Source: Chamaesiphon minutus PCC 6605 (lineage in GTDB: Bacteria > Cyanobacteriota > Cyanobacteriia > Cyanobacteriales > Chamaesiphonaceae). Taken from it: a stretch of 64,000 bases of DNA. The notes beneath the pieces were generated by a model. That model had not been told where the DNA came from, searched no databases, and worked only from the letters and a program-made list of their open reading frames with translations. Both the position numbers and the translations under genes were made by a program. The stretch is from contig NC_019697.1 in NCBI RefSeq assembly GCF_000317145.1, forward strand, positions 1,116,001 to 1,180,000. Reading direction: 5' to 3'. This document shows positions 13,942 to 38,704 of the stretch, one piece after another (within the stretch, counting starts at the first letter, position 1; each line of letters begins with the position of its first letter).

Positions 13942-14108
13942 CTAAATAATCTCCAGATTGGCGATCTGCTCGATCGAGTGGCTCAAATTCAATTCCCTCC
14001 TACTCCTGATTGGCGATCGAAAACCGATTGCGTGCTAAGAGTCAGAGCGTTCGTATTGCGGAGCTTTGGCATACAGTTAATATTAATTCTTTAAACTTCG
14101 ACTACATA

Positions 14109-14225
14109 TCTCTTCTACCATCTGTCTCGCAGCTTGCGCGCCGCCTAAGCGGCGGTCGCTCGTAGCCGTCGGCAAACAAAGGCGTGCGCGCATCGCTACC
14201 CTCTACTCTCTCTTCTGCCATCTGT
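14109..14225. repeat. Short direct repeats around a GC-rich segment
   Basis: The 17-mer TCTCTTCT(A/G)CCATCTGT occurs at 14109-14125 and 14209-14225. Between them is a GC-rich, hairpin-forming stretch (ccgcctaagcgg) and HIP1-like words. This makes up most of what can be said of the 13942-14316 gap; I see no gene there. Confidence 0.45.
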
Positions 14226-14316
14226 AGCCCTACTAAAGCGGATTGGTATCAGAATAGCGATCTCGAAGAAATCAGTTACAGAGAAAGCACCACCAGATTT
14301 TTTGGCATTATTTTCA

Positions 14317-14571
14317 CTATCCATATTTAAGTTTAAACCGCAGAATTACTAAATTCAGTACCAACGTCACGGCATTTGCGACAATTATGGGCGCACTTTG
14401 AACTAATAAGCCATAAATCAGCCAGATCGAAATGCCAGCAATAAATGATAGTAAGGTTGGCAAAGATAGATCTTTGGTAGACTTAGACTGCCACACCTGA
14501 AATACTTGAGGCAAAAAAGCTGCGGTTGTCAGCGTTGCTGCTAAATATCCGACTAGATCGATCGCTGCCAT
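14317..14571 (-). CDS. SemiSWEET-type sugar transporter (PQ-loop protein)
   Basis: 84 aa from the ATG at 14571 (MAAIDLVGYLAATL); the upstream ATG at 14610 would add 13 polar residues in front of the first membrane helix. Three transmembrane helices with the PQ motif FLPQVFQVWQSKSTKDLSLPT in helix 1/loop and a helix 3 rich in N/V/L are diagnostic for SemiSWEETs, which dimerise to form a sugar uniporter. Intact by length. Confidence 0.85.
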   Translation of the reverse strand: MAAIDLVGYLAATLTTAAFLPQVFQVWQSKSTKDLSLPTLLSFIAGISIWLIYGLLVQSAPIIVANAVTLVLNLVILRFKLKYG

Positions 14572-18964: not shown

Positions 18965-19090
18965 CGAGCGAGAGCGTAATCTCACATCTGTTTGGGGTCA
19001 TTAGGTTGCGCCTAGTGGTTACTGTCAATCCAGAAACAGGTAAAGTCGATCGACTCAACCTCAAATGATGCCGAGGAGATCGAGCTATCT

Positions 19091-26909: not shown

Positions 26910-28226
26910 ATGTCAGAAACCAATCCCCGCGAATCAGATCTAATTTTAGGCGGACAAATTCTACCTCCTGTAAATGCTGCGATATTAGGTGGATTGGCTG
27001 GTGTCAAACAACGGTTGGAAAGTGAATCGATCGCCGAACGACTTCAGGCTCTAAATAATGCAGTTGCCTATGGTGATGATGGGATAGATTTAGCCCTGCG
27101 ATCGCTATCGGATAATGATGATAAGGTACGGCGGTTAGCAAAGAGATTATTACGCGATCGATTTGGGGAAGCAGGAAAGAAAGCATTTATAAACCATGAT
27201 GTTGCTAGTTATTTTCTTAAGATCGATGATTGGAATAAGGAGGAGTATTATTCTGGTATTGGCATTGCCGACCCAGATAATAATGCTTATTATCGTGAAG
27301 TATATCTGCCTGGAATGTGGAAGAAAGATGAAGACTACCAGACAAAACAGTTTAAGTCTCTACTACAAAGTTCTAGTGCCAATCGAATGCAGGCATTGAT
27401 TTTAGAAGCAGTTGAGAACAAATTAGATTTTTTTAGATTTATCTTTGAAAGTATTCAGTCAAATAATACTCCCTTAAGTAATCTCAAAGCATTACAGATA
27501 GGCGATAGAAAGATAGATTGGGAGGAAGTGGATCTTGAGAATGATGAGTTTGACCGAGACTTGCTTGTCAAGCCTAAAAATGATCGTTTGTATCAGACCG
27601 ATATCAGCTCCTTACTTATATTGTTTCCCAATTTAGAGTATTTAAATGTTTATGGAAATTATCATGAATATTTAAGTCCTAATAATCTTGCTCTCAAACA
27701 ATTTTGCGCTGGCAAGTCCATCAAAAATAAATTAAAAACCTTAGTAATTGGAGATGCCGATGTCGATAGAACGATATCCAATATATCTCCAACTAGTTTC
27801 CCTGAATTAGAGCATTTTGAGATCTGGTTCAATGATACGAAGGATATTATGCCAACGATTCAAGCTATTAGCCCAATATTGTCGAAGAAAGCTACACCTA
27901 AATTAAAGTATTTAGCCCTATGCAATTGTCAAGTATCTGAGGCTTTAATTAGAGCAGTAATAAGAACTCCTGTTATTGAAAAACTTGACGTTTTAGATTT
28001 CAGAAGTGGCTCTATGATGGATGGTATTATACAATATATTTTAGATTGTCAAAAAATTAGAAATCTCAAGCTTTTGAATATCTCAGATAATTATTTGACC
28101 GAGCGAGGGATAGAGCGGCTGAGACAGCTTCCCTGTAAAATTGAGGCAGCTAATCAATTTCAATCCAAGCACGCAAAAGATGAAAGAGATCTCAGATTCT
28201 CGCGGTATTCGGTATCCGCTGAATAA
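26910..28226 (+). CDS. Tagged HEAT-LRR protein
   Basis: 438 aa. Tag at residues ~8-37 (SDLILGGQ...NAAILGGLAGVKQRL). Residues ~38-95 are a HEAT-like repeat resembling the 24515/25031 proteins (ERLQALNNAVAYGDDGIDLALRSL). Residues ~190-415 are leucine-rich repeats of the STM4015 kind (NLKALQIGD, NLEYLNVYGNYHEYL, LKTLVIGDAD, ELEHFEIWF, LKYLALCNC, EKLDVLDFRSG, LKLLNISDN). The C-terminus RYSVSAE matches the tails of the other two LRR proteins (RYCVVAE, RYIAVSE). Domain order makes it a bridge between the HEAT and LRR members. Confidence 0.85.
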   Translation: MSETNPRESDLILGGQILPPVNAAILGGLAGVKQRLESESIAERLQALNNAVAYGDDGIDLALRSLSDNDDKVRRLAKRLLRDRFGEAGKKAFINHDVASYFLKIDDWNKEEYYSGIGIADPDNNAYYREVYLPGMWKKDEDYQTKQFKSLLQSSSANRMQALILEAVENKLDFFRFIFESIQSNNTPLSNLKALQIGDRKIDWEEVDLENDEFDRDLLVKPKNDRLYQTDISSLLILFPNLEYLNVYGNYHEYLSPNNLALKQFCAGKSIKNKLKTLVIGDADVDRTISNISPTSFPELEHFEIWFNDTKDIMPTIQAISPILSKKATPKLKYLALCNCQVSEALIRAVIRTPVIEKLDVLDFRSGSMMDGIIQYILDCQKIRNLKLLNISDNYLTERGIERLRQLPCKIEAANQFQSKHAKDERDLRFSRYSVSAE

Positions 28227-28245
28227 CTATTAATCATTGAGCGTC

Positions 28246-28269
28246 AATCCAAAATCCAAAATCCAAAAT
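28246..28269. repeat. ATCCAAA heptamer tandem repeat
   Basis: Three head-to-tail copies of AATCCAA(A) just before the DUF2997 start. The same heptamer family appears at 20243-20253, 21309-21318, 33240-33270, 34425-34455 and, inside reading frames, at 32511-32543 and 37707-37732. Confidence 0.75.
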
Positions 28270-28272
28270 AAG

Positions 28273-28491
28273 ATGGCTGAATATCAAAAGATCGAATACC
28301 GCATCGGCAAAGACGGCAAAGTCACCGAAACCGTCATCAATGGTAACGGCGAAACCTGTACCCTCGCTACCCAGGATCTCGAAGCATCCTTGGGTAAAGT
28401 CGAATCGCGAGAACTATTACCCGAATACCACGATGGTGCAGATAACTACCTCGTCAACGAACAGTCTCAATCTAACGAAACTCAAGGATAG
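28273..28491 (+). CDS. DUF2997 protein
   Basis: 72 aa from the ATG at 28273; the longer frame from 28237 is just the heptamer repeat translated. YQKIEYRIGKDGKVTETVINGNGETCTLATQDLEASLG is the DUF2997 signature; in cyanobacteria this small protein accompanies Ycf35/DUF1257. 5 nt before the GrpE-like gene, so clearly one transcript. Function unknown. Confidence 0.85.
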   Translation: MAEYQKIEYRIGKDGKVTETVINGNGETCTLATQDLEASLGKVESRELLPEYHDGADNYLVNEQSQSNETQG

Positions 28492-28496
28492 AAACG

Positions 28497-29150
28497 ATGG
28501 AGCCAGAAATAATCGGTGGGTTGGTAGGGACTTTCACGAGTATTGCGACATTAGGATTCTTTTATTGGCGATTGCTTAAAATTGCGAAAGCTAGTCGAGT
28601 AGCATTAGAGTCGCGCTTAACTCAGGAAATTAACACCTTAAAAGATCGATCGCAAGCAACTGAATCAGCCTTACAGTCTCAATTAATAGAGGTAAAATCT
28701 CAACTTCAAACTAGCGAAGTCAAAAGAGCCAAGTTAGAAGCAGAAATCGCCGCGCTGACACAACAATGTCAGCGATTGCGAGAGGAATTGAAAACTCAAG
28801 CAGCGCAAGTTCGATCGGATGCGATCGATGGTGGATTCGAGCAAATTCAAACGCTATTAACTCAATATCCTAGCGTGCGAAGGATGGTAGAAAGTCAGCC
28901 AGATTTACCCGCACGCAATATCGTTGCTTTATTAACATCTCTGGAAAATATCGTTAAATTCTGGGAGTGTCAATCGATCGGCAAACCCTGGGAAATGGTG
29001 CCATATGACCCGCAGATCCATCAAAGCGATGTAGATGATATCCAAGTTGGCGAATCCGTTTATGTGCGGTTTATCGGCTATCAGAAAGGAGATCGGATTT
29101 TGATTCCTGCTAAGGTTAGCCGCACATTACCAGCAGGAGCGAAAACATGA
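28497..29150 (+). CDS. Membrane-anchored GrpE-like nucleotide exchange factor
   Basis: 217 aa. Residues ~5-27 form one transmembrane helix (IIGGLVGTFTSIATLGFFYW). Residues ~35-110 are a long coiled coil. The C-terminal ~70 residues (ENIVKFWECQSIGKPWEMVP...YDPQIHQSD, then a small beta domain) resemble the GrpE C-terminal head (G-x-P-F-D-P-x-x-H-x-A). It overlaps the Hsp70-like gene by 4 nt (ATGA). Inference: a dedicated exchange factor that may tether its Hsp70 to a membrane. Confidence 0.7.
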   Translation: MEPEIIGGLVGTFTSIATLGFFYWRLLKIAKASRVALESRLTQEINTLKDRSQATESALQSQLIEVKSQLQTSEVKRAKLEAEIAALTQQCQRLREELKTQAAQVRSDAIDGGFEQIQTLLTQYPSVRRMVESQPDLPARNIVALLTSLENIVKFWECQSIGKPWEMVPYDPQIHQSDVDDIQVGESVYVRFIGYQKGDRILIPAKVSRTLPAGAKT

Positions 29151-30724
29151 CGGCAATCGCGATCGATTTTGGCACCAGTAACACCGTAGTTAGCATCTTA
29201 GAACCCGATACCCAAACGCCGAAGACGCTGCGGTTTCCCAGTTTGTCGCGGGTATTTAATTTGGGCGATACGATCGCTACAGGTGGAGATATTGCGGTAA
29301 TTCCAAGCTTGGTATACGTCGCCACAGGGCGCGAGATTATCGTCGGGGAGCGGGTGCGATCGCAGCGATTAGGACTATCGCAACCCCAGCGGTTTTTTCG
29401 AGCATTCAAACGCGATTTGGCAGCAGATTTTCAGATTCCACCGCGCACGATCGAGGAAAAGGTATTCGATTCTCATGCGGTGGCGATCGAATTTCTGACG
29501 CAGATTTGGCAGGAAATTTTAGCAGCAAATATCGAACCATCTTTAGTAATTTTTACGGTTCCCGTCGGTACGTTCGAGCGGTATTTAGACTGGTTTAAAG
29601 ATGTCGCCACCGAGTTAAAATTACCGACGGTTAAATTCGTCGATGAATCGACAGCAGCGGCTTTGGGTTATGCCGTACAACGTCCGGGTTCGATCGTGTT
29701 AGTTGCTGATTTTGGTGGGGGAACGCTGGATTTGAGTTTAGTGAGAACTTCGCCCCTGGGTACGGATGATGTCAAATTGCAAGCAGAGGTATTAGCCAAG
29801 ACGGATGTATATGTCGGTGGAGAAGATATCGACAGGTGGATTATTGAAGATTATTTAGTTAAGTTAAATAGCGACAGAGAAACCATCGGTGAAGTTGGCT
29901 GGCAAAATTTACTCGCGATCGCCGAGCGGTTGAAAATTCGATTGACTAAAGATACCGACGCGCGAGAAAGTTGGTTAGATGAGGATACATTTATGTCCTA
30001 CGATCTGACTTTAGCTCGATCGCAATTAGAAGATTTATTAGAACAGCGACAATTACTCGAACAATTTCGCGATGCGATCGATGAAATCCTCACTCTCGGC
30101 TTGCGAAAAGGTGTCCAAAAACCCGACATCGAACAGATATTATTAGTCGGTGGTAGCTGTCAAATTCAAGCGATTCAACACCTATTTACATCCTACTTTG
30201 GCAGACAACGCGTCAAGCTCCACAAACCCTTTGAAGCCGTCGCACATGGAGCCTTAGCTCTTACCCAAATTGCGGGATTAGAAGACTATCTCCGACATGG
30301 ATATTGCATCCGTCTCTGGGAACCATATACTCGGACTTACAATTATTTTCCCCTGTTTGAAGCTGGGATTAAATATCCCTGCAAACGCGACGAACCATTA
30401 ACCCTCCAAGTCGCCTTGGAAGGACAAACGGAACTGCGCTTAGATATCGGTGAAATCGCCCAAATTAGCACCGCAGAAGTCACTTATGACGCCCAAGGGA
30501 GAATGAATAGTGTTCCGGTAAATAAACAATCTCAATATCGATCGTTAGAACGCGATCGCAATTCGGTTTGTTTGGCGAGATTGGAACCACCAGGGGAATT
30601 AGGAATCGATCTGATTGCGGTAGAATTTGCGGTGACGGAGCATCGAATTTTAGTTGTTACGGTGACGGATTTATTGACTAATCGAGTGTTGGTGGAACGA
30701 GGATCGATCGCTAAATTGAATTGA
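29147..30724 (+). CDS. Hsp70/DnaK-like ATPase
   Basis: 525 aa. Actin-fold phosphate loops AIDFGTSNTVVSI (start) and LVADFGGGTLDLSLVR (~residue 185), adenosine motif ILLVGGSCQIQAIQHL (~residue 328). Shorter than DnaK (~640 aa): the beta-sandwich is reduced and the helical lid is absent. Start overlaps the GrpE-like stop. Probably recognises clients within this cluster; the tag is a candidate ligand (inference). Confidence 0.85.
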   Translation: MTAIAIDFGTSNTVVSILEPDTQTPKTLRFPSLSRVFNLGDTIATGGDIAVIPSLVYVATGREIIVGERVRSQRLGLSQPQRFFRAFKRDLAADFQIPPRTIEEKVFDSHAVAIEFLTQIWQEILAANIEPSLVIFTVPVGTFERYLDWFKDVATELKLPTVKFVDESTAAALGYAVQRPGSIVLVADFGGGTLDLSLVRTSPLGTDDVKLQAEVLAKTDVYVGGEDIDRWIIEDYLVKLNSDRETIGEVGWQNLLAIAERLKIRLTKDTDARESWLDEDTFMSYDLTLARSQLEDLLEQRQLLEQFRDAIDEILTLGLRKGVQKPDIEQILLVGGSCQIQAIQHLFTSYFGRQRVKLHKPFEAVAHGALALTQIAGLEDYLRHGYCIRLWEPYTRTYNYFPLFEAGIKYPCKRDEPLTLQVALEGQTELRLDIGEIAQISTAEVTYDAQGRMNSVPVNKQSQYRSLERDRNSVCLARLEPPGELGIDLIAVEFAVTEHRILVVTVTDLLTNRVLVERGSIAKLN

Positions 30725-30730
30725 TTATGA

Positions 30731-30860
30731 CTAGTACAATCGAGATCCGCGCTGAAATGGAATTTCGCGCTCATGGCAAAAGTTATCTGAAGATAACTGA
30801 AATTCGGTTTTAGTCCGTTTCAACGGACTTTTGCTCTTAGCCCCAAATTCATTTGAGGGC
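30731..30860. repeat. Structured intergenic repeat R3
   Basis: Third copy of the R1/R2 family, without a RAYT gene beside it. Stem AGTCCGTttcaACGGACT replaces AGTTCGtgtcaaCGAACT while pairing is kept. It starts CTAGTACAAT 7 nt after the Hsp70-like stop (R1 starts CTAGTGCAAT) and lies just before the next tagged gene. Confidence 0.75.
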
Positions 30861-30890
30861 TGCATCGATGTCGCACTATTCAGCTCGATC

Positions 30891-30900
30891 GGGCATAATA
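30891..30900 (+). promoter_or_regulatory. Conserved upstream decamer (GGGCATAATA)
   Basis: 37 nt before the ATG at 30928; identical to the element at 26874 and close to GGGTACAATA at 19091. The following ~30 nt also share the word ATCGATCGAT(C/CC) with the 19128 leader. Confidence 0.4.
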
Positions 30901-30927
30901 ACTATAACCTTATATCGATCGATCCCC

Positions 30928-32016
30928 ATGTCAGAACTCAATCCCCAAGAATCCGATGCTGTCTTTGGCGGACAAAATCTACCGCCGATAAATGCTGCCG
31001 TATTAGGTGGTGAAGTAGGTATAAAAAAACGATTACAATATGAAAAGTCTATTGCTAGAGAAAACAAATTTTGGCATAACTTCAAGTATTTGCATGGGTT
31101 CTCACAATATATAGTTTTCGAGCCGCATGTAAAAATAATTAATCCTCAAGAAACTGCTTATTTTTTAAGAGATTATCGATATAATCCTCCTCCCAACAAC
31201 ATCTCTTTTGAAGACAAATTTGATGCTCTTGTTAAACAAACTAGAGCTAGTGAAGTTGAAGGTTTATTTTTTGGATGTTTGAGCAATGAAAAGCTTATCA
31301 ATATTTTGGTCGATAATTGCAAAAAATTGAAAAAATTGAAGGCATTATGCCTCGGAGCTATTTCTGAAGATGAGCAAATGATTTCTGAGATATATCATGG
31401 TGATATTAGCAGAATTTTATTAGCCTACGATAAATTGGAAATTTTACAGATCAGGGGGCGATATTTACGGTTTTGTACGAAATTGCATCATCAAAACCTC
31501 AAATCTTTGACAATTATAAGTGGAGGGTTAAATCGCGAATCATTGTTAGATATCAATGAGCTAGATTTACCTGCTTTAGAATATTTAGAAATTTGGCTTG
31601 GGAGCAAGGAGTATGGATCTAATTCTTCCATTACCGATCTGATGCCAATTATTTCTGGAGATAAGTTTCCAAAATTAAAATATTTAGGGTTTAAGAATTG
31701 CGAATATACGGATGATATTGCTTTTGAATTAGCTAGATCTCCAATTATAGAGAAATTACTAGAATTAGATTTGTCAATGGGAGCATTGGGTGATGATGCT
31801 TTGTCAGCAGTACTTTCCTGTCCAATGATTAACGAATTAGATAAATTAGATGTGTCTCAAAACTTTATTTCAGATGGATTTATCGCAGAGAAACTACCTC
31901 AGTTTAAGCTAAACTGCGAATTAATTACTGAAGGTCAACGTCAAGTATATCCTTATGATGATTATGGAAATGAAATAAATGAGAGAGAATATCGATATTG
32001 CGTAGTTGCAGAGTAA
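30928..32016 (+). CDS. Tagged leucine-rich repeat protein (STM4015-like body)
   Basis: 362 aa from the ATG at 30928, which puts the tag at residues ~8-37 (SDAVFGGQ...NAAVLGGEVGIKKRL). LRR array at ~140-340 (LKALCLGAIS, LEILQIRGRYLRF, LKSLTIISGGL, ALEYLEIWLGS, LKYLGFKNC, LLELDLSMGALGD, LDKLDVSQNF) corresponds repeat by repeat with the STM4015 protein at 33277. C-terminus EYRYCVVAE matches EYRYIAVSE there. 6 nt before the ATP-grasp gene. Confidence 0.85.
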   Translation: MSELNPQESDAVFGGQNLPPINAAVLGGEVGIKKRLQYEKSIARENKFWHNFKYLHGFSQYIVFEPHVKIINPQETAYFLRDYRYNPPPNNISFEDKFDALVKQTRASEVEGLFFGCLSNEKLINILVDNCKKLKKLKALCLGAISEDEQMISEIYHGDISRILLAYDKLEILQIRGRYLRFCTKLHHQNLKSLTIISGGLNRESLLDINELDLPALEYLEIWLGSKEYGSNSSITDLMPIISGDKFPKLKYLGFKNCEYTDDIAFELARSPIIEKLLELDLSMGALGDDALSAVLSCPMINELDKLDVSQNFISDGFIAEKLPQFKLNCELITEGQRQVYPYDDYGNEINEREYRYCVVAE

Positions 32017-32022
32017 ACTTGA

Positions 32023-33213
32023 ATGCTGAATTTCGTCCTAATTGCTAACCCCGAAACCCGACGCGTGCAACTATTCCAGCAAGCACTAGCACGTTACGGA
32101 TTACCGCCAGCCAGACTAATCGCCTACGCCGATTTGCTCGCCAATAGGTGCGATTTAGCTCAATTTGACTCCCCAGATACTATCTTCCGATTTGACGCGC
32201 CAGAGCGCAGTTTTGACGTCGATCGAGGGTTTATTGCCGCAGGTGCCGAACTGGAGCCAGATGGACGACATCAACGTATTAGTACCAGTGCAGCGGCGCA
32301 GTTACCAGAAGATTTGGGGCGGATTTGGTATCAACGTCAATGGTATCTCGGCTGGTGCGATCGATTGCGATCGTGGACGGCTAATTTGCAAGGGCGAATC
32401 TTAAATCATCCCGATGATATTATCATCATGTTTGATAAAGTCCGGTGTCAGCAAATATTAGCAGCAGCAGGTATTCCCGTACCACCAATGTTATCGATCG
32501 ATCTCAATCTCCAATCCAAAATCCAAAATCCAAAATCCAAAATCGACAAATTGATGGACGAGCGAAACATCAATCGAGTATTTATTAAACTGGCGCATGG
32601 CTCCTCCGCTTCGGGAGTGGTTGCTTACGAACGTCGGCATGGATACGAACGGGCAATTACGACTGTAGAAAGAGTTGTCGAAGCAGGAGAATTACGGTTT
32701 TATAATTCGCGATTGATTCGGCAATATCGCGATCCAGACGCGATGGCGGATATTATCAATTTTCTGGCTGCTGAATCAGTTCAAGCCGAAACATGGCTTC
32801 CCAAAGCACGATTGGAAGGAAGAGAATTTGACGTGCGGGTGGTAGTCGTTGGTGGTAAAGCGCGTCAAGCAGTAATTCGAGTGGGCAATAGCCCCATGAC
32901 TAATTTACACTTAGGAAACGATCGCCGAGAAGTTACCGATTTACCTACGGGTTTATCGCCTGCGGCTTGGGCGGAAATGTTAGCTACCTGCGAACGCGCT
33001 GCTGCTTGTTTTCCCAATACTTTCTATTGTGGCATCGATTTATTAATCGCGCCCAATTTGAGGGAACACTATATTCTAGAAATGAATGCATTTGGTGACT
33101 TGCTTCAAGGGATTACTTGGCAAGGTGAAGATACTTATACAACGGAGGTAAGGATGTTGATAGAAGAGGAGGAGACTAGGAGACTAGGAGACTGGGAAAT
33201 AAGTAGGAACTAG
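32023..33213 (+). CDS. STM4014-family ATP-grasp protein
   Basis: 396 aa. ATP-grasp core from ~140 to 370: FDKVRCQQILAAAGIPVPP, VFIKLAHGSSASGVVAYE, EGREFDVRVVVVGGKARQAV, FYCGIDLLIA...YILEMNAFGD (metal ligands E and N). The N-terminal ~120 residues are a pre-ATP-grasp domain. The family is carboxylate-amine/thiol ligase-like and may ligate or phosphorylate a peptide. Bases 32508-32546 encode an in-frame insertion of the heptamer repeat (SKIQNPKSKI). The last ~15 residues come from a GGAGACTA tandem repeat, so the native C-terminus is probably slightly shorter. Confidence 0.85.
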   Translation: MLNFVLIANPETRRVQLFQQALARYGLPPARLIAYADLLANRCDLAQFDSPDTIFRFDAPERSFDVDRGFIAAGAELEPDGRHQRISTSAAAQLPEDLGRIWYQRQWYLGWCDRLRSWTANLQGRILNHPDDIIIMFDKVRCQQILAAAGIPVPPMLSIDLNLQSKIQNPKSKIDKLMDERNINRVFIKLAHGSSASGVVAYERRHGYERAITTVERVVEAGELRFYNSRLIRQYRDPDAMADIINFLAAESVQAETWLPKARLEGREFDVRVVVVGGKARQAVIRVGNSPMTNLHLGNDRREVTDLPTGLSPAAWAEMLATCERAAACFPNTFYCGIDLLIAPNLREHYILEMNAFGDLLQGITWQGEDTYTTEVRMLIEEEETRRLGDWEISRN

Positions 33214-33276
33214 ATCGAGTAATATTTATACAGCCTTTCAATCCGCAATCCGCAATCCACAATCCACAATAAAAAA

Positions 33277-34197
33277 ATGGGCATCTATCAACACGTAGAA
33301 AAATTCATCGGCAAGCCAATTGTCGAATATACAACCGATACTGGAATTGCCTACCCGATCGAGATAATTTATCGAATGAGTGTAGAGTATGACTCAGAGC
33401 ATAGCATTCTCGATTTACTTGCGCATTTTACAGAACATCCCAATGCCAGCAGAGTTCCTGGCTTAATTATCGGGATGTGGGATTGTGAGGAAAGCAGTCA
33501 GAATGTTGTCGATTTTCTCGTCAATGCTAGTCAAAAACTGCCCAGCCTGTCGGCACTTTTTTTAGGTGATATTACGGGTGATGAAAATGAAATATCTTGG
33601 ATCGAACAAAGCGATCTCTCACCACTCTTAACGGCTTATCCGCAGCTAGAACATTTACAGATACGCGGTAATGATGGATTGGTACTTGGAGAGCTAAAAC
33701 ACGATCGATTAAAAACATTAATCGTCGAAACTGGTGGGTTGAGCGTCGAAAGAGTTCGGGAAGTATGTCAGGCGCAGTTGCCACAATTAGAACATTTAGA
33801 ATTATGGTTGGGTGACGATAATTATGGCGGCGATACAACGGTAGAAGATCTAGCTCCGATTTTAAGTGGAAAATTATTTCCCAATTTAAAGTATTTAGGT
33901 TTGAGAGATAGTTGTATAGCAGACTCGATCGCCACTGCGGTAGCAAAGGCACCCGTGCTGCAACAAATCAAAGTCCTCGATCTATCTTTGGGTAACTTAG
34001 GTGATGTCGGTGCTGCTGCTTTATTAGCAAGCCCATTGATAAAACACTTAGCAAAACTCGATCTCAATCACCACTATATTCCTGAAGAATTCAGATCTAA
34101 ATTTGAAGAATTGGGTATTGATGTCGATCTAAGTGACGAGCAAGAGGTAGACGAAGATGATGACGAAGAATATCGATACATTGCCGTCTCTGAATAA
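33277..34197 (+). CDS. STM4015-family leucine-rich repeat protein
   Basis: 306 aa without the N-terminal tag (begins MGIYQHVEKFIGKPIVEY). Repeats: LSALFLGDI, LEHLQIRGNDGL, LKTLIVETGGL, LEHLELWLGDDNYGG, LKYLGLRDS, IKVLDLSLGNLGD, LAKLDLNHHYI. C-terminus is acidic, ending EYRYIAVSE. It is the untagged paralog of the 30928 and 26910 proteins. In Salmonella and other bacteria STM4015 is encoded beside STM4011-4014, suggesting it is substrate or scaffold of those enzymes. Confidence 0.85.
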   Translation: MGIYQHVEKFIGKPIVEYTTDTGIAYPIEIIYRMSVEYDSEHSILDLLAHFTEHPNASRVPGLIIGMWDCEESSQNVVDFLVNASQKLPSLSALFLGDITGDENEISWIEQSDLSPLLTAYPQLEHLQIRGNDGLVLGELKHDRLKTLIVETGGLSVERVREVCQAQLPQLEHLELWLGDDNYGGDTTVEDLAPILSGKLFPNLKYLGLRDSCIADSIATAVAKAPVLQQIKVLDLSLGNLGDVGAAALLASPLIKHLAKLDLNHHYIPEEFRSKFEELGIDVDLSDEQEVDEDDDEEYRYIAVSE

Positions 34198-34456: not shown

Positions 34457-35281
34457 ATGAACGTCGATCGATTAATTGGTACCCATGATTTCCTATTTAT
34501 TACCCTCGACACCCTCCGGTACGATGTCGCGCAAGAATGCCTAACAAATGGATATACACCCAACTTAGCGCGATTATTACCTGGAGGTAAGTGGGAGCGC
34601 AGACACACGCCTGCAAGCTTCACCTATGCCGCTCACCAGGCATTTTTTGCAGGCTTTTTACCCACCCCAGATTTACCAGGCAAACATCCTCGGTTATTCG
34701 CCCTCAGTTTTGCAGGGAGCGAGACAACGGGCGAAAATACTTGTGTCTTTGAAACGGCAGATATTATCTCTGGATTTGCCCAGCGGGAATATCATACAAT
34801 TTGTATCGGTGGGGTGGGCTTTTTTAATAAGCAAAATGCGTTAGGTAATGTGTTACCAGGGATGTTTGCCGAGAGTCACTGGGATATTAGTTTGGGTGTA
34901 ACCGATCCTAATTCTACGGAAAATCAGGTCAGGTTGGCGATCGAATGTTTAGCCAAATTACCTCGATCGCAACGGGTATTTCTATTTATCAATATTTCCG
35001 CTTTACATCAGCCAAATTGTATCTTTCTGCCTGGAGAAACGATCGATTCACCGATTACTCAAGCAGCCGCATTAGCTTATGTCGATCGACATCTTCCCCC
35101 ATTATTTGAGGCAATGCAACAACGCGCTCCGATAATGGGGATTATCTGCTCGGATCATGGGACTGCTTATGGGGAGGATGATTATCATGGGCATCGATTG
35201 AGTCATCCAGTGGTGTGGCATGTGCCTTATGCTGAGTTTATCTTGCCTCGGCTCGATCGATCTGAAGCTAACGCGCTTTGA
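34457..35281 (+). CDS. STM4013-family sulfatase/phosphatase-fold hydrolase
   Basis: 274 aa. DFLFITLDTLRYDVAQ (metal-binding Asp) and ICSDHGTAYGEDDYHGH (metal-binding DHG and His) place it in the alkaline phosphatase/sulfatase superfamily. The nucleophile region reads PASFTYAAHQAFFAGF, without the CxPxR motif used to make formylglycine, so Thr or Ser is the likely nucleophile and no FGE is required. Second enzyme of the STM40xx set; followed by a terminator hairpin. Confidence 0.85.
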   Translation: MNVDRLIGTHDFLFITLDTLRYDVAQECLTNGYTPNLARLLPGGKWERRHTPASFTYAAHQAFFAGFLPTPDLPGKHPRLFALSFAGSETTGENTCVFETADIISGFAQREYHTICIGGVGFFNKQNALGNVLPGMFAESHWDISLGVTDPNSTENQVRLAIECLAKLPRSQRVFLFINISALHQPNCIFLPGETIDSPITQAAALAYVDRHLPPLFEAMQQRAPIMGIICSDHGTAYGEDDYHGHRLSHPVVWHVPYAEFILPRLDRSEANAL

Positions 35282-35549: not shown

Positions 35550-35882
35550 ATGTTTGATATTTGGAAACATGCAAATGAAATAACAAATAACCTCGCTCAA
35601 GGTTTGTACATTTTAGAATTCCAATATGGAGGAACCAGCTTTTCAGAAATTCCAGAAACTATCGTCAAAACAGCAATCTCAGATGCTTGGCAGCTTGTTA
35701 TCGAACAGGCGCAAAAAGGAAATGTTAATTTAACGGAAGAATATCTGTCATCATTCATTCGTGACAAGTTAAGGCGCGATCGCAATTGTCAAGCACGTTT
35801 GGCGATCCTTCGATCGACCGTTACATCAGATATTCAGAGATCGAATACATTAGCACTATCAATCGAGTTTTTTGATATATAG
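35550..35882 (+). CDS. Hypothetical protein, 110 aa
   Basis: Not recognised. Good Shine-Dalgarno-like GGGAGAAA before the ATG. Predicted alpha/beta: EFQYGGTSFSEIPETIVKTAISDAWQLVIEQAQKGNV, then a basic segment IRDKLRRDRNCQAR. Lies between STM4013 and the radical SAM pair and precedes another unknown gene on the same strand. Confidence 0.55.
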   Translation: MFDIWKHANEITNNLAQGLYILEFQYGGTSFSEIPETIVKTAISDAWQLVIEQAQKGNVNLTEEYLSSFIRDKLRRDRNCQARLAILRSTVTSDIQRSNTLALSIEFFDI

Positions 35883-35910
35883 TGAGACCGAACCAACAGC
35901 CACGCTATAT

Positions 35911-36342
35911 ATGGGTGTTGACATTCGATCGAAAACCTTAACTTGTCACAGATGGTCATCATTACACAAGCTGCTTGCAAAGACGATCGGTGCGGCATCA
36001 CCAGGCGTTTTTGATAATGATGGCGGTCGTGGTGAATGGACATTACTTGTAGACGTGTGTTATCAATGTTTAGAAGACGGTTTGAATAATATTTCTGGCT
36101 GCGATGCTTGGATTTTAGCGCAGCTATTTGGGGGCAATCATGTCAGAAGTATGGCGATGTCATTAGCTTGGTTGTGTATCAATGGGTTAAGGCTGCAAGA
36201 CGGTTTATTCGCGATCTATCCAAGTGCAGATAGAAATGAAAGATTATCAATTGCTTTAGAAGATGCTTGGTTGGATGCAGAAGATTTGAGAGGATTCTTT
36301 GGCTATTATGAGCACGACCAAAAGCCAGAAGGTTATCGATAA
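35911..36342 (+). CDS. Hypothetical protein, 143 aa
   Basis: Not recognised. I prefer the ATG at 35911 (MGVDIRSKTLTC) over 35872, which would overlap the previous gene by 11 nt; either is possible. Mostly helical with CDAWILAQLFGGNHVRSMAMSLAWLCINGLR; acidic C-terminus. 26 nt upstream of the STM4012 gene, so probably co-expressed with it. Confidence 0.5.
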   Translation: MGVDIRSKTLTCHRWSSLHKLLAKTIGAASPGVFDNDGGRGEWTLLVDVCYQCLEDGLNNISGCDAWILAQLFGGNHVRSMAMSLAWLCINGLRLQDGLFAIYPSADRNERLSIALEDAWLDAEDLRGFFGYYEHDQKPEGYR

Positions 36343-36368: not shown

Positions 36369-37829
36369 ATGACAACACTCCAAACCCTCCTCGCTAATTC
36401 CACTTACACATCCTATTCCTACGCCTACCCCCACAAAACCGCCTATCGCCCCTTAAATCCACCAGCACATTTATCAACAGTTTGGGCGCAGGAAAATAAG
36501 TCCGCATTATTCCTCTACCTGCATATTCCCTTTTGCGAAATGCGATGTGGATTTTGCAACTTATTTACCCAAACAAATGCAGGCAAAGATTTAGTCAGCG
36601 AGTATTTAAAAACCCTCACCAGAGAAGCCACACAAGTAAAAGCCGCCTTGGGTGACTCCCAATTTGCACGGATGGCGATCGGCGGTGGCACGCCAACGTT
36701 TCTAAATGTGCCAGAATTAGAACGGGTATTCGATCTGGCGGCGGATATTATGGGTGCAAATCTCCACCAGATCCCGATCTCGGTAGAAGTATCGCCCCAA
36801 ACAGCTACTACTGAGAAGTTAACATTATTAAAGCAGCGCGGTGTCGATCGAGTTAGTATCGGCATTCAGAGTTTTATCCCCGCCGAAACCGCCGCAGCAG
36901 GCAGACCTCAAACGCTGGATAATGTCTATGCTGCCCTAGATCGGATTCATTCTGTCGGTTTTCCCACCCTGAATTTAGATCTAATTTACGGCTTACCTGG
37001 ACAATCGATCGACAGTTGGTTAAAATCGCTCCAGATTGCCCTCAAATTCGCCCCAGAGGAACTCTATCTCTATCCGCTCTACATTCGACCTTTGACGGGT
37101 TTAGAACGCTCTCGCCGCGAATGGAACGACGAACGCCGCGATTATTATCGTCACGCTCGCGATTTCTTATTAGCCTCCGGTTACGAGCAAGTCTCCATGC
37201 GCATGTTTCGCTCTCGTCATGCGCCAAACCTCGATGCTCCGGTTTATTGCTGTCAGGCAGATGGCATGGTAGGTTTAGGCTGTGGCGCGCGATCGTACAC
37301 ATCATCTTTGCACTATTCGAGTGAATATGCCGTCGGAATGACGGGAATTCAAGAAATTATCGCCAATTATACCAAGCAAGAAGACGATTCTCCAGGTGAG
37401 ACGCTCCGCGAACGGTTTAACTGGGTTAATTATGGTTATCAACTTGACTTAGACGATCGCCAACGCCGATTTCTGATTCAATCTTTATTGCAGTCGGAAG
37501 GCTTGGATCTCAATGATTATCAACAAACCTTCCACACCGATGCGCTAACAGATTTCCCACAGCTCAACGATTTATTAACCCTAGAACTAGCAACGTGGGA
37601 AGTGGGAGAGGGGGAGACGGGAAGCAATCCAAAATCATCTATCAATCCGCCACCCAAAATCCCGCTTGGTGCGCTTCCATGGTCGGGGAACCCGACCGGA
37701 GCGCATCCGCAAAATCCAAAATCCAAAATCATCCTCACCCCCGCAGGCGTAGAAGTATCCGACACCTTGGGAGTTTGGTTATATTCACCGCAAGTCAAAT
37801 CATTGATGGAGGATTATCAATGGCGTTAG
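36369..37829 (+). CDS. STM4012-family radical SAM protein (HemN-like)
   Basis: 486 aa. The SAM-binding cluster motif is CEMRCGFC (CxxxCxxC) in LYLHIPFCEMRCGFCNLFTQ; then GGGTPTFLNVPEL and VSIGIQSF are HemN/HemW-like. C-terminal HemN-like winged region near 365-470. The family is usually ~430-440 aa; the surplus is an in-frame insertion of repeat DNA at 37602-37735 (GEGETGSNPKS...GAHPQNPKSKI). The stop overlaps the STM4011 start by 10 nt. Likely chemistry: radical modification of a peptide or cofactor. Confidence 0.88.
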   Translation: MTTLQTLLANSTYTSYSYAYPHKTAYRPLNPPAHLSTVWAQENKSALFLYLHIPFCEMRCGFCNLFTQTNAGKDLVSEYLKTLTREATQVKAALGDSQFARMAIGGGTPTFLNVPELERVFDLAADIMGANLHQIPISVEVSPQTATTEKLTLLKQRGVDRVSIGIQSFIPAETAAAGRPQTLDNVYAALDRIHSVGFPTLNLDLIYGLPGQSIDSWLKSLQIALKFAPEELYLYPLYIRPLTGLERSRREWNDERRDYYRHARDFLLASGYEQVSMRMFRSRHAPNLDAPVYCCQADGMVGLGCGARSYTSSLHYSSEYAVGMTGIQEIIANYTKQEDDSPGETLRERFNWVNYGYQLDLDDRQRRFLIQSLLQSEGLDLNDYQQTFHTDALTDFPQLNDLLTLELATWEVGEGETGSNPKSSINPPPKIPLGALPWSGNPTGAHPQNPKSKIILTPAGVEVSDTLGVWLYSPQVKSLMEDYQWR

Positions 37830-38704
37830 AATTATCAATTTTGTATCGAGGTTCGCTCTCTAGTTGTAACTATGGCTGTGAATATTGCCCCTTCGCCAAA
37901 CGTACTAATACAGCCGCAGAATTAGCAACAGATAAAGCCGAACTCGATCGATTCTTTAATTGGGTAGAAGCTCGCGATCCAACCGACAAAATCGGGATAT
38001 TATTTACACCATGGGGTGAAGCTCTGATTCATCGCTATTATCAATCCGCGATCGCCAGACTTTCCGATCTTCCTCAAGTCACTAAAGTCGCCATTCAAAC
38101 CAATCTTGCTTGCGAGCTAGATTGGGTAAAAGATTGCAATTTAGATACCCTAGCCCTGTGGACTACTTTTCATCCCACCGAAGTCTCGATCGAGCGATTC
38201 TTACAACAATGTCAGCAACTCGATTTAGCCAAAGTTAAATATAGCGTCGGGATTGTGGGACTCAAAGAACACCAACAATCCGCACGATTATTACGTCAAG
38301 AATTAGCTCCAGATGTCTATCTCTGGGTAAATGCCTACAAACGTCAGCCGGACTATTATCACCCCGAAGATCTCGATTTATTCACCCAAATCGATCCACT
38401 ATTTCCCATCAATAACCAAGTTTACGATACCTTTGGCAAACCCTGCCGCACGGGACATCAAGTAATTACGGTAGATGGAGCAGGTACGATGCGTCGCTGT
38501 CATTTTATCCCCGATTCGATCGGCAATATTTACGATCCAAATTTTGCAGCATCTTTACTCGCCAGAAATTGTCAAAACCAAGTTTGTCGTTGTCATATCG
38601 GGTACGTACATTTACCAGAATTAAATTTAGATCGAGTCTATGGCGATGGTATTTTAGAAAGAATTCCCCATCCTGAGAGTAATAGTCACTTAGTCAGCGG
38701 TTAA
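37820..38704 (+). CDS. STM4011-family radical SAM protein with SPASM-like cysteines
   Basis: 294 aa from the ATG at 37820; a longer frame from 37595 merely reads the repeat inside STM4012. SAM cluster CNYGCEYC near residue 16-23. C-terminal cysteines in GKPCRTGHQVITVDGAG, TMRRCHF and NCQNQVCRCHIGYVH look like an auxiliary Fe-S (SPASM-type) cluster, typical of enzymes that modify ribosomal peptides. Overlaps STM4012 by 10 nt: strict co-translation. Confidence 0.88.
   Translation: MALELSILYRGSLSSCNYGCEYCPFAKRTNTAAELATDKAELDRFFNWVEARDPTDKIGILFTPWGEALIHRYYQSAIARLSDLPQVTKVAIQTNLACELDWVKDCNLDTLALWTTFHPTEVSIERFLQQCQQLDLAKVKYSVGIVGLKEHQQSARLLRQELAPDVYLWVNAYKRQPDYYHPEDLDLFTQIDPLFPINNQVYDTFGKPCRTGHQVITVDGAGTMRRCHFIPDSIGNIYDPNFAASLLARNCQNQVCRCHIGYVHLPELNLDRVYGDGILERIPHPESNSHLVSG

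Follow-up and report, generated by a model that had tools for sequence, protein, structure and literature searches.

A conserved C-terminal tail ending in glutamate on STM4015-family LRR proteins and its possible role beside the ATP-grasp protein STM4014

LRR proteins of the STM4015 family end in a conserved tail, R-Y-x-x-V-[SAG]-E, and are encoded beside an ATP-grasp protein, STM4014, in clusters with two radical SAM enzymes and a hydrolase. Three such proteins are encoded in the window, the 64,000-nucleotide stretch of the Chamaesiphon minutus PCC 6605 genome analyzed here (contig NC_019697.1, positions 1,116,001 to 1,180,000). Our tentative explanation, which we consider just short of probable, is that STM4015 is a carrier or substrate whose terminal glutamate would be loaded by STM4014 before the radical SAM enzymes act.

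Conservation of the tail in the window and in the family

All three proteins lie on the + strand. Protein 1 (26910..28226; 438 amino acids) ends in RYSVSAE, encoded by the last seven codons before the stop (28203..28223); protein 2 (30928..32016; 362 amino acids), directly upstream of STM4014, ends in RYCVVAE (31993..32013); and protein 3 (33277..34197; 306 amino acids) ends in RYIAVSE (34174..34194). An earlier note on this DNA had pointed out these shared ends, and they were recovered when the open reading frames (ORFs) were re-read, as was the restriction of an N-terminal tag (D[AL][VI][LF]GGQ...LGG) to proteins 1 and 2. The NCBIfam model NF038076 (fam_STM4015) matches proteins 1, 2 and 3 with 117.8, 211.7 and 356.8 bits, respectively; with a curated cut-off of 275 bits, this makes protein 3 a member and leaves proteins 1 and 2 as relatives of STM4015 that fall outside the family by the cut-off rule. 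The match takes in the tail, reaching model position 290 of 290 in proteins 2 and 3 and position 287 in protein 1. An acidic linker before the tail, which had been ascribed to all three proteins, is present in protein 3, where it is strongly acidic (D+E 11, K+R 0), and in protein 2 (7 versus 3) but not in protein 1 (4 versus 4); as a family trend it stands, being net negative in 171 of 179 STM4015 proteins. Similarly, the shared end was correctly noted, but its proposed form, V-(S/A)-(A/S)E, describes the family less well than R-Y-x-x-V-[SAG]-E, from which protein 1 itself deviates by V at -4 and S at -3. A DNA-pattern search of the host genome for the tail gave 38 matches, versus 19 with a reversed control, and among the 30 of these 38 that were fetched as loci the strict motif ([YF]xx[VLI][SAGTN]E) ended an ORF only in proteins 2 and 3, the tail of protein 1 being unable to match the pattern.

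Conservation elsewhere in the family had been named beforehand as the point on which the proposal could fall, and the proposal withstood this test. Among 189 unique full-length STM4015 proteins, the sequence [YF]-x4-E is terminal in 179 and a glutamate in 182. The strict form ends 159 of these 189 ORFs and occurs at the end of none of 6465 other closed ORFs of at least 100 amino acids and none of 329 STM4011-4014 ORFs. (The set of 189 was obtained from 223 by dropping partial matches, with fewer than 180 profile columns or short of column 230, and repeats of the last 120 amino acids.) A search profile built from 11 seeds, with the last 22 residues removed before building, retrieved 126 ORFs from 96 sources, of which 109 carry a loose form of the tail as compared to 4 of 12155 other closed ORFs of at least 60 amino acids; dropping hits with E > 1e-20 reduced the 126 to 122, and dropping those with more than 70% body identity reduced the 122 to 90. 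The tail is thus commoner in STM4015 than expected by chance. A dependence of the tail on the N-terminal tag was considered and rejected, as the two are independent; the tag is present in 15 of the 126 profile hits and was seen in cyanobacterial loci only.

The tail also persists while the repeat body diverges. Across three classes of rising LRR-body divergence it is kept in 94 of 99, 55 of 57 and 30 of 33 proteins. In the most divergent class, conservation of E-1 (0.91), Y-6 (0.94) and R-7 (0.88) lies inside or close to the span of the best body columns (0.91-1.00), although V-3 has fallen to 0.58. Tailed relatives were read in 11 phyla from organism titles and taxonomies. A sample of Gammaproteobacteria had the tail in 4 of 4 full-length STM4015 ORFs read and in 0 of 11 other LRR ORFs. 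We therefore reject the view that the tail is an accident of one lineage and, as generic LRR partial matches also end without it, the view that it is a general property of LRR proteins. Two Fimbriiglobus proteins that adjoin STM4014 and match the LRR profile in part have kept only Y-6 and E-1. The contig scan confirmed 572 stretches, of which the 80 best were retained, and is therefore biased to relatives of the window's STM4013.

STM4014 and the other enzymes of the cluster

Of 77 loci with both genes, 72 have STM4015 as the immediate upstream neighbor of STM4014, and a same-strand upstream ORF ending in [YF]-x4-E was found at 67 of 78 STM4014 genes. The other 11 do not have a tailed ORF at this position, and one of them (locus L095) has a tail-less LRR protein there. 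This ending is absent from ORFs other than STM4015 that precede STM4011 (0 of 217) or STM4012 (0 of 338). In 246 Actinomycetes genomes, STM4015 and STM4012 exceeded their cut-offs in one and the same set of 31, and STM4014 did so in 30 of those 31 and nowhere else; in genome G701 STM4015 is present and a match to STM4014 was not found. One Bacteroides plasmid locus has the tail without STM4012 and with STM4013 only as a fragment.

The STM4014 family ATP-grasp protein of the window (32023..33213, + strand; 415.6 bits, cut-off 175) is the proposed tail ligase. A structure model built on an alignment of 49 sequences had ArgX with LysW as its best Foldseek match, with the graspetide ligase PsnB ranked fourth. 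A second structural comparison gave Z scores of 23.4 for ArgX, 22.7 for RimK and 22.5 for both LysX/ArgX and LysX, as well as 21.9 for D-cycloserine synthetase and 21.5 for glutathione synthetase, where scores within 1 of each other count as tied. The predicted fold is, by a small margin, nearest to ArgX/LysX and RimK. Residues K139, K189, D339, E353 and N355 are invariant in the 49 sequences and, by analogy, would be the Mg/ATP residues of the ATP-grasp fold. In Pfam, ATPgrasp_ST is the commonest match of the family (39 of 49 members; RimK, only 6 of 49), and the window protein likewise scores higher with ATPgrasp_ST (35.5 bits, cut-off 31.4) than with RimK (25.5 bits, cut-off 21); against the NCBIfam model rimK_fam it reaches 35.9 bits, below the cut-off of 143.4. 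The single STM4014 sequence gave only chance-like matches when searched against the PDB.

The other enzyme genes follow on the + strand. They encode an STM4013/SEN3800 family hydrolase (34457..35281; 419.7 bits, cut-off 250), a HemN-like STM4012 family radical SAM protein (36369..37829; 582.7 bits, cut-off 380), whose Cys triad is invariant in 40 sequences, and a radical SAM protein of the STM4011 family (37820..38704; 402.9 bits, cut-off 200), the C-terminal part of which is rich in Cys and SPASM-like. The start at 37820 is a chosen one within a longer frame that runs from 37595. Cysteines C209, C227, C251, C256 and C258 are conserved in STM4011; weak SPASM matches (E up to 0.1) were obtained for 18 of 45 members, and the STM4011 protein of the window gave none. 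Searches of the PDB with the single STM4011 sequence and with an STM4011 profile gave only chance-like matches. The genes of the window belong to, or come close to, the NCBIfam families STM4011-STM4015, whose names give no function, and our literature search on these names found no paper on function. DUF6745 proteins and their small partner were considered as additional tailed substrates: the former mostly end in Y-x-P-x-x-[EQ]-T and the latter ends in D, but as Pfam PF20530 extends to its own last position in DUF6745, this ending may be just the end of the domain.

Possible roles of the tail

The earlier note suggested that the tail is the modification or recognition site for the neighboring enzymes. 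This interpretation is partly supported: conservation, adjacency to STM4014, co-occurrence in genomes and, by a small margin, the nearest folds of STM4014 speak for it, and the predicted order of the tail in the unmodified protein speaks against a free tail. In an AlphaFold2 model of protein 3, built on a 60-sequence alignment, the last residues have a pLDDT of about 91 and the whole chain has one of 97.2. In a structural alignment (Z 33.2, rmsd 1.8, 276 residues), PDB entry 2ra8, a solved Bacteroides homologue of STM4015, is paired with this model as far as residue 306 and spans chain residues 7-357. The sequence proper of 2ra8 stops at residue 354 with YSYPMITE, and its tail seems to be resolved. 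As the tail is predicted to be ordered before any modification, a structural or docking role is a conceivable alternative.

We infer the action of STM4014 on the tail, the type of bond, the order of steps and the product as follows. STM4015 would be an LRR scaffold acting as carrier; its last seven residues, R-Y-x-x-V-[SAG]-E-COOH, preceded in most cases by an acidic linker, would form the working end. STM4014 would activate a carboxylate of the terminal glutamate and couple it to an amine, in the manner of LysX/ArgX on LysW or of RimK on ribosomal protein S6. The SPASM-like STM4011, the HemN-like STM4012 and the hydrolase STM4013 would then process the attached group or the tail, resulting either in a permanently modified protein end or in a small molecule freed from a reusable carrier.

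There are precedents for parts of this scheme. RimK adds glutamate to the C-terminus of ribosomal protein S6. By its model, STM4014 belongs to the same ATP-grasp fold group but differs in forming its own family, with an LRR protein as constant partner and four more genes in the cluster. According to excerpts of PMC10433800, LysW carriers hold their substrate on a C-terminal glutamate within EDWGE, and excerpts of PMC9303977 indicate that enzymes exploit the negative charges on LysW-type carriers. In the same excerpts, LysW/ArgW and Vzb22 with LysX/ArgX combine a C-terminal glutamate in a conserved acidic or aromatic motif, a RimK/LysX-type ATP-grasp partner and enzymes acting on the tethered substrate, and the conserved terminal glutamate of STM4015 resembles that of LysW. 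STM4015 differs in being an LRR protein with RYxxVxE in place of EDWGE, and a small zinc domain was not found with NCBIfam or Pfam; hence, it is not a member of the LysW family and at most works alike. The cluster also differs in its other enzymes, which are radical SAM proteins together with a hydrolase resembling alkaline phosphatase. The pearlins (carrier peptides TglA and TmoA, with PEARL) are small molecules made on a carrier C-terminus, in one case with a radical SAM enzyme; as described in excerpts of PMC9303977, however, the loader is an aminoacyl-tRNA-dependent ligase rather than an ATP-grasp protein and the carrier is a short peptide.

That the cluster encodes radical SAM enzymes of two families can also be read in another way. 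Tyr -6 and other tail residues may be the targets of STM4011 and STM4012, with the LRR protein as an outsized leader in a RiPP-like system; the ATP-grasp protein may form a side-chain amide or cap the end, and the tail may be cleaved off as the product. The SPASM scores and conserved cysteines of STM4011, the Y or F at -6 in 181 of 189 proteins, the presence of at least two tailed copies in 24 of 96 loci and the rank of PsnB among the matches of STM4014 are consistent with this proposal. We nevertheless consider it unlikely, as the precursor would be a folded protein of 300 to 500 residues rather than the short peptide expected of a precursor, and F stands in place of Y in 12 of 189 proteins and Y is absent in 8. 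Furthermore, no recurrent releasing peptidase or protease was noticed among the 12 most shared neighbor families (54 loci), few of which were annotated; this result also counts against the carrier scheme.

It is also conceivable, but rather improbable in our view, that the tail packs against its own LRR body, as an aid to folding or stability, while the enzymes act on something else. The high pLDDT of the tail in protein 3 and the pairing of 2ra8 with the whole C-terminal end of the model, as far as residue 306, would be expected of such a cap. However, the tail outlasts divergence of the body, even if V-3 does so less, the distance from the end of the LRR profile to the C-terminus varies from 15 to 38 residues, generic LRR proteins do without the tail, and packing leaves the terminal glutamate and the pairing with STM4014 unexplained. 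Conservation and the tie to STM4014 would also be expected of a docking tag, a peptide with a free C-terminal carboxylate that binds the pocket of a cluster enzyme unchanged and so brings in the LRR protein and its cargo; a constant free C-terminus would fit a carboxylate-binding pocket. We regard this as quite improbable, since docking alone does not account for the finding that STM4014 has ligases acting on a protein C-terminal glutamate as its nearest folds.

If STM4015 is instead loaded at its terminal glutamate, it may represent a new class of LRR-based carrier, in which a dedicated RimK/LysX-like STM4014 would load the free C-terminal glutamate and two radical SAM enzymes would modify the tethered group, making a small molecule or a protein modification in at least 11 bacterial phyla; this broader proposal is possible but still doubtful. 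STM4011-STM4015 form a cluster of five genes that is widespread and tightly linked, and for which the tail offers a short, testable site (the terminal glutamate and Tyr -6) and a named partner enzyme. Were the carrier interpretation true, an LRR-based carrier would join the few known routes to small molecules built on a protein C-terminus.

Tail conservation in the STM4015 family

The three LRR ORFs of the window (LRR1, 26910-28226; LRR2, 30928-32016; LRR3, 33277-34197) lie where the earlier note had placed them and have the C-terminal ends that it had read (RYSVSAE, RYCVVAE and RYIAVSE), with an N-terminal tag confined to LRR1 and LRR2. The acidic linker claimed before each tail is present in LRR2 and LRR3 but not in LRR1. 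All three match NCBIfam fam_STM4015, LRR3 above and LRR1 and LRR2 below its cut-off, and STM4014 (ATP-grasp), STM4013 (hydrolase), STM4012 and STM4011 (both radical SAM) of the window each exceed their own curated NCBIfam cut-offs. LRR1 is followed by two short ORFs, a gene for a DnaK-like protein, LRR2, STM4014, LRR3, STM4013, two ORFs of no assigned family, STM4012 and STM4011. Between LRR1 and LRR2 (28237-30724) lie a short ORF, a 217-aa ORF and the DnaK-like protein, the last two with relatives in loci L056 and L071. Two ORFs of 110 and 156 aa between STM4013 and STM4012 (35550-36342) gave no match of weight in a family search; several cyanobacterial loci likewise have a gap at this place. 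The N-terminal tag, D-A-[VI]-L-G-[GN]-Q ... [LI]-L-G-G-x-x-G-x-K, is common to six window proteins of different kinds (at 19065, 22980, 24515, 25031, 26910 and 30928), of which two are SUMF1-like in sequence and one has a GUN4_N-like domain; among the loci here, only cyanobacterial ones have it.

A profile blind to the tail, built from 11 STM4015 seeds minus their last 22 residues, was used to search ORFs from 96 sources, comprising the window, STM4013-homology loci (the 80 best-ranked of 572 confirmed stretches), plasmid records and related genomes. It returned 126 ORFs, seeds included, of which 109 matched a loose tail expression, versus 4 of 12155 other closed ORFs. Among the 90 left after removal of near-duplicates, relative entropy ranged from 1.56 to 4.23 bits across the seven C-terminal positions, was 1.23 at -8 and did not exceed 0.93 further upstream (shuffles, maximum 0.38); counted from the C-terminus, R-7 occurred in 82, Y-6 in 77 (F in 9), V-3 in 67 and E-1 in 85. 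With later loci added there were 189 unique full-length STM4015 proteins (E-1 in 182, [YF]-6 in 181, [VLI]-3 in 178, R-7 in 160). The prediction that the tail is conserved in STM4015 proteins elsewhere thus holds, [YF]-x4-E being present in 179 and absent from ten. This pattern ended 10 of 6465 other closed ORFs of at least 100 aa, and the strict form [YF]xx[VLI][SAGTN]E, found in 159 of the 189, ended none; neither occurred in the 329 ORFs of the four cluster enzymes. A sample of 369 gammaproteobacterial genomes contained 23 with a match, 2 above the cut-off; in the new loci read, all four full-length STM4015 ORFs and none of 11 other LRR ORFs were tailed.

The tail persists as the body changes. 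When the proteins were grouped into three classes by increasing divergence of the body, 94/99, 55/57 and 30/33 had [YF]-x4-E; in the most divergent class, E-1 stood at 0.91, Y-6 at 0.94, R-7 at 0.88 and V-3 at only 0.58, and the 15 best body columns at 0.91-1.00. The LRR3 motif ENEISWI is absent from LRR1 and LRR2, although both retain the tail. Two Fimbriiglobus proteins adjoining STM4014, with partial LRR-profile matches, end QYLYEGDYE and QYLYMGDME, retaining Y-6 and E-1. The linker carries a net negative charge in 171/179, and the C-terminus lies 15 to 38 residues beyond the point where the LRR profile ends.

Association with STM4014 and the cluster

All five families occurred together in 65/96 sources, some of the remainder being cut by contig ends. 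In 72 of the 77 loci with both, STM4015 immediately preceded STM4014, an adjacency kept even in many Myxococcota loci where the pair is split from STM4013-4012-4011 and inverted. When the LRR profile was not used, 67 of 78 STM4014 genes still had a same-strand upstream ORF ending [YF]-x4-E; the other 11 include cut contigs, single-residue variants, LRRs elsewhere and a tail-less LRR in L095, whose genome encodes a tailed STM4015 on a different contig. Yinghuangia seranimata (L099) has six consecutive tailed STM4015 genes before STM4014, and seven family members genome-wide. A Bacteroides finegoldii plasmid (L025, 7683-11880) carries STM4015, STM4014, STM4011 and only a fragment of STM4013, with no STM4012 in the locus; its tail, WYYPMITE, is retained despite this.

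Among 246 evenly drawn Actinomycetes genomes, centred on one picked for having the cluster and with lists compared by eye, 31 had STM4015 above the family cut-off, the same 31 had STM4012 and 30 of them STM4014; no other genome had any of these above cut-off. We rechecked 17 genomes whose locus lacked STM4015 or STM4014 or had an odd one. STM4015 matched at E 1e-50 or better in 12, only weakly and partially in 2 and not at all in 3, where STM4014 was missing too; STM4014 exceeded its cut-off in 13, and in G701, which has STM4015, no STM4014 match was found. The family is rare in cyanobacteria (6/386 with a match, 5 above cut-off).

Two further families usually adjoin the cluster, both with conserved C-termini: a DUF6745 protein, often with LRRs (35/96 sources), and a small partner ending QREYxPxxIRxVxD (34/96); examples lie at L029:12961-14103 and 14104-14505, L019:4801-5829 and L090:8844-9971. 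Another neighbour family recurs in L036, L044, L046, L053 and L076, the L036 member being a HAD-type hydrolase.

Candidate roles of the tail

In NCBIfam, STM4014 matches rimK_fam next after its own family (5.1e-9); among 49 members, Pfam ATPgrasp_ST was commonest (39), with RimK in 6. A profile of these 49 gave uniformly weak matches to PDB sequences (LysX, 6e-4; biotin carboxylase, 1.3e-3; RimK, 4e-3). Foldseek with the AlphaFold2 model (pLDDT 94.0) gave ArgX with LysW as the top match (3vpb, 3.9e-13), while RimK came third and PsnB, a graspetide ligase, fourth. A second-look aligner gave ArgX 23.4, RimK 22.7, LysX/ArgX 22.5 and LysX 22.5, with D-cycloserine synthetase next at 21.9 and glutathione synthetase at 21.5. 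Since ArgX, RimK and LysX top this ranking, the structures nearest to STM4014 are, by a small margin, those of enzymes acting on a protein C-terminal Glu. Invariant K139, K189, D339, E353 and N355 speak for a catalytically active STM4014.

On LysW-type carriers, LysX or ArgX is described as placing the substrate on the gamma-carboxyl of the C-terminal Glu (excerpts of PMC10433800 and PMC9303977). STM4015 resembles them in its constant terminal Glu and mostly acidic linker, and the cluster in its adjacent ligase of that fold and in enzymes possibly acting on a tethered group. By this analogy, STM4014 would join a substrate to the terminal Glu and the remaining enzymes would then act on the tethered group, a reading to which we give close to an even chance. 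It is unlikely, though conceivable, that the tail is instead RiPP-like, with the radical SAM enzymes targeting Tyr or other residues in it; STM4012 retains its Cys triad, and STM4011 has the radical SAM Cys triad and five further conserved Cys, with weak SPASM scores in 18/45 members and none in the window's own protein.

That the tail is a structural cap, part of the folded LRR protein, seems distinctly unlikely; it keeps this share of our belief because AlphaFold2 orders the tail and 2ra8, the solved Bacteroides homologue, appears to show it (residues after 354 there are presumably a purification tag). Order before loading would be compatible with loading, yet it weighs against a free arm. 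That the tail serves simply for docking is less likely still.

The STM4011-STM4015 families were already known by name. Among open-licence papers, no functional study was found for STM4011-STM4015, SEN3800, SEN3801, 2RA8, Q64V53, PRK08208 or NF038076, nor any on the function of LRR proteins with radical SAM, ATP-grasp or RiPP; in two papers, the excerpts name STM4013 or STM4015 only as table entries. STM4015 is not a member of LysW and is therefore counted as a putative new variation on C-terminal carrier or substrate logic.
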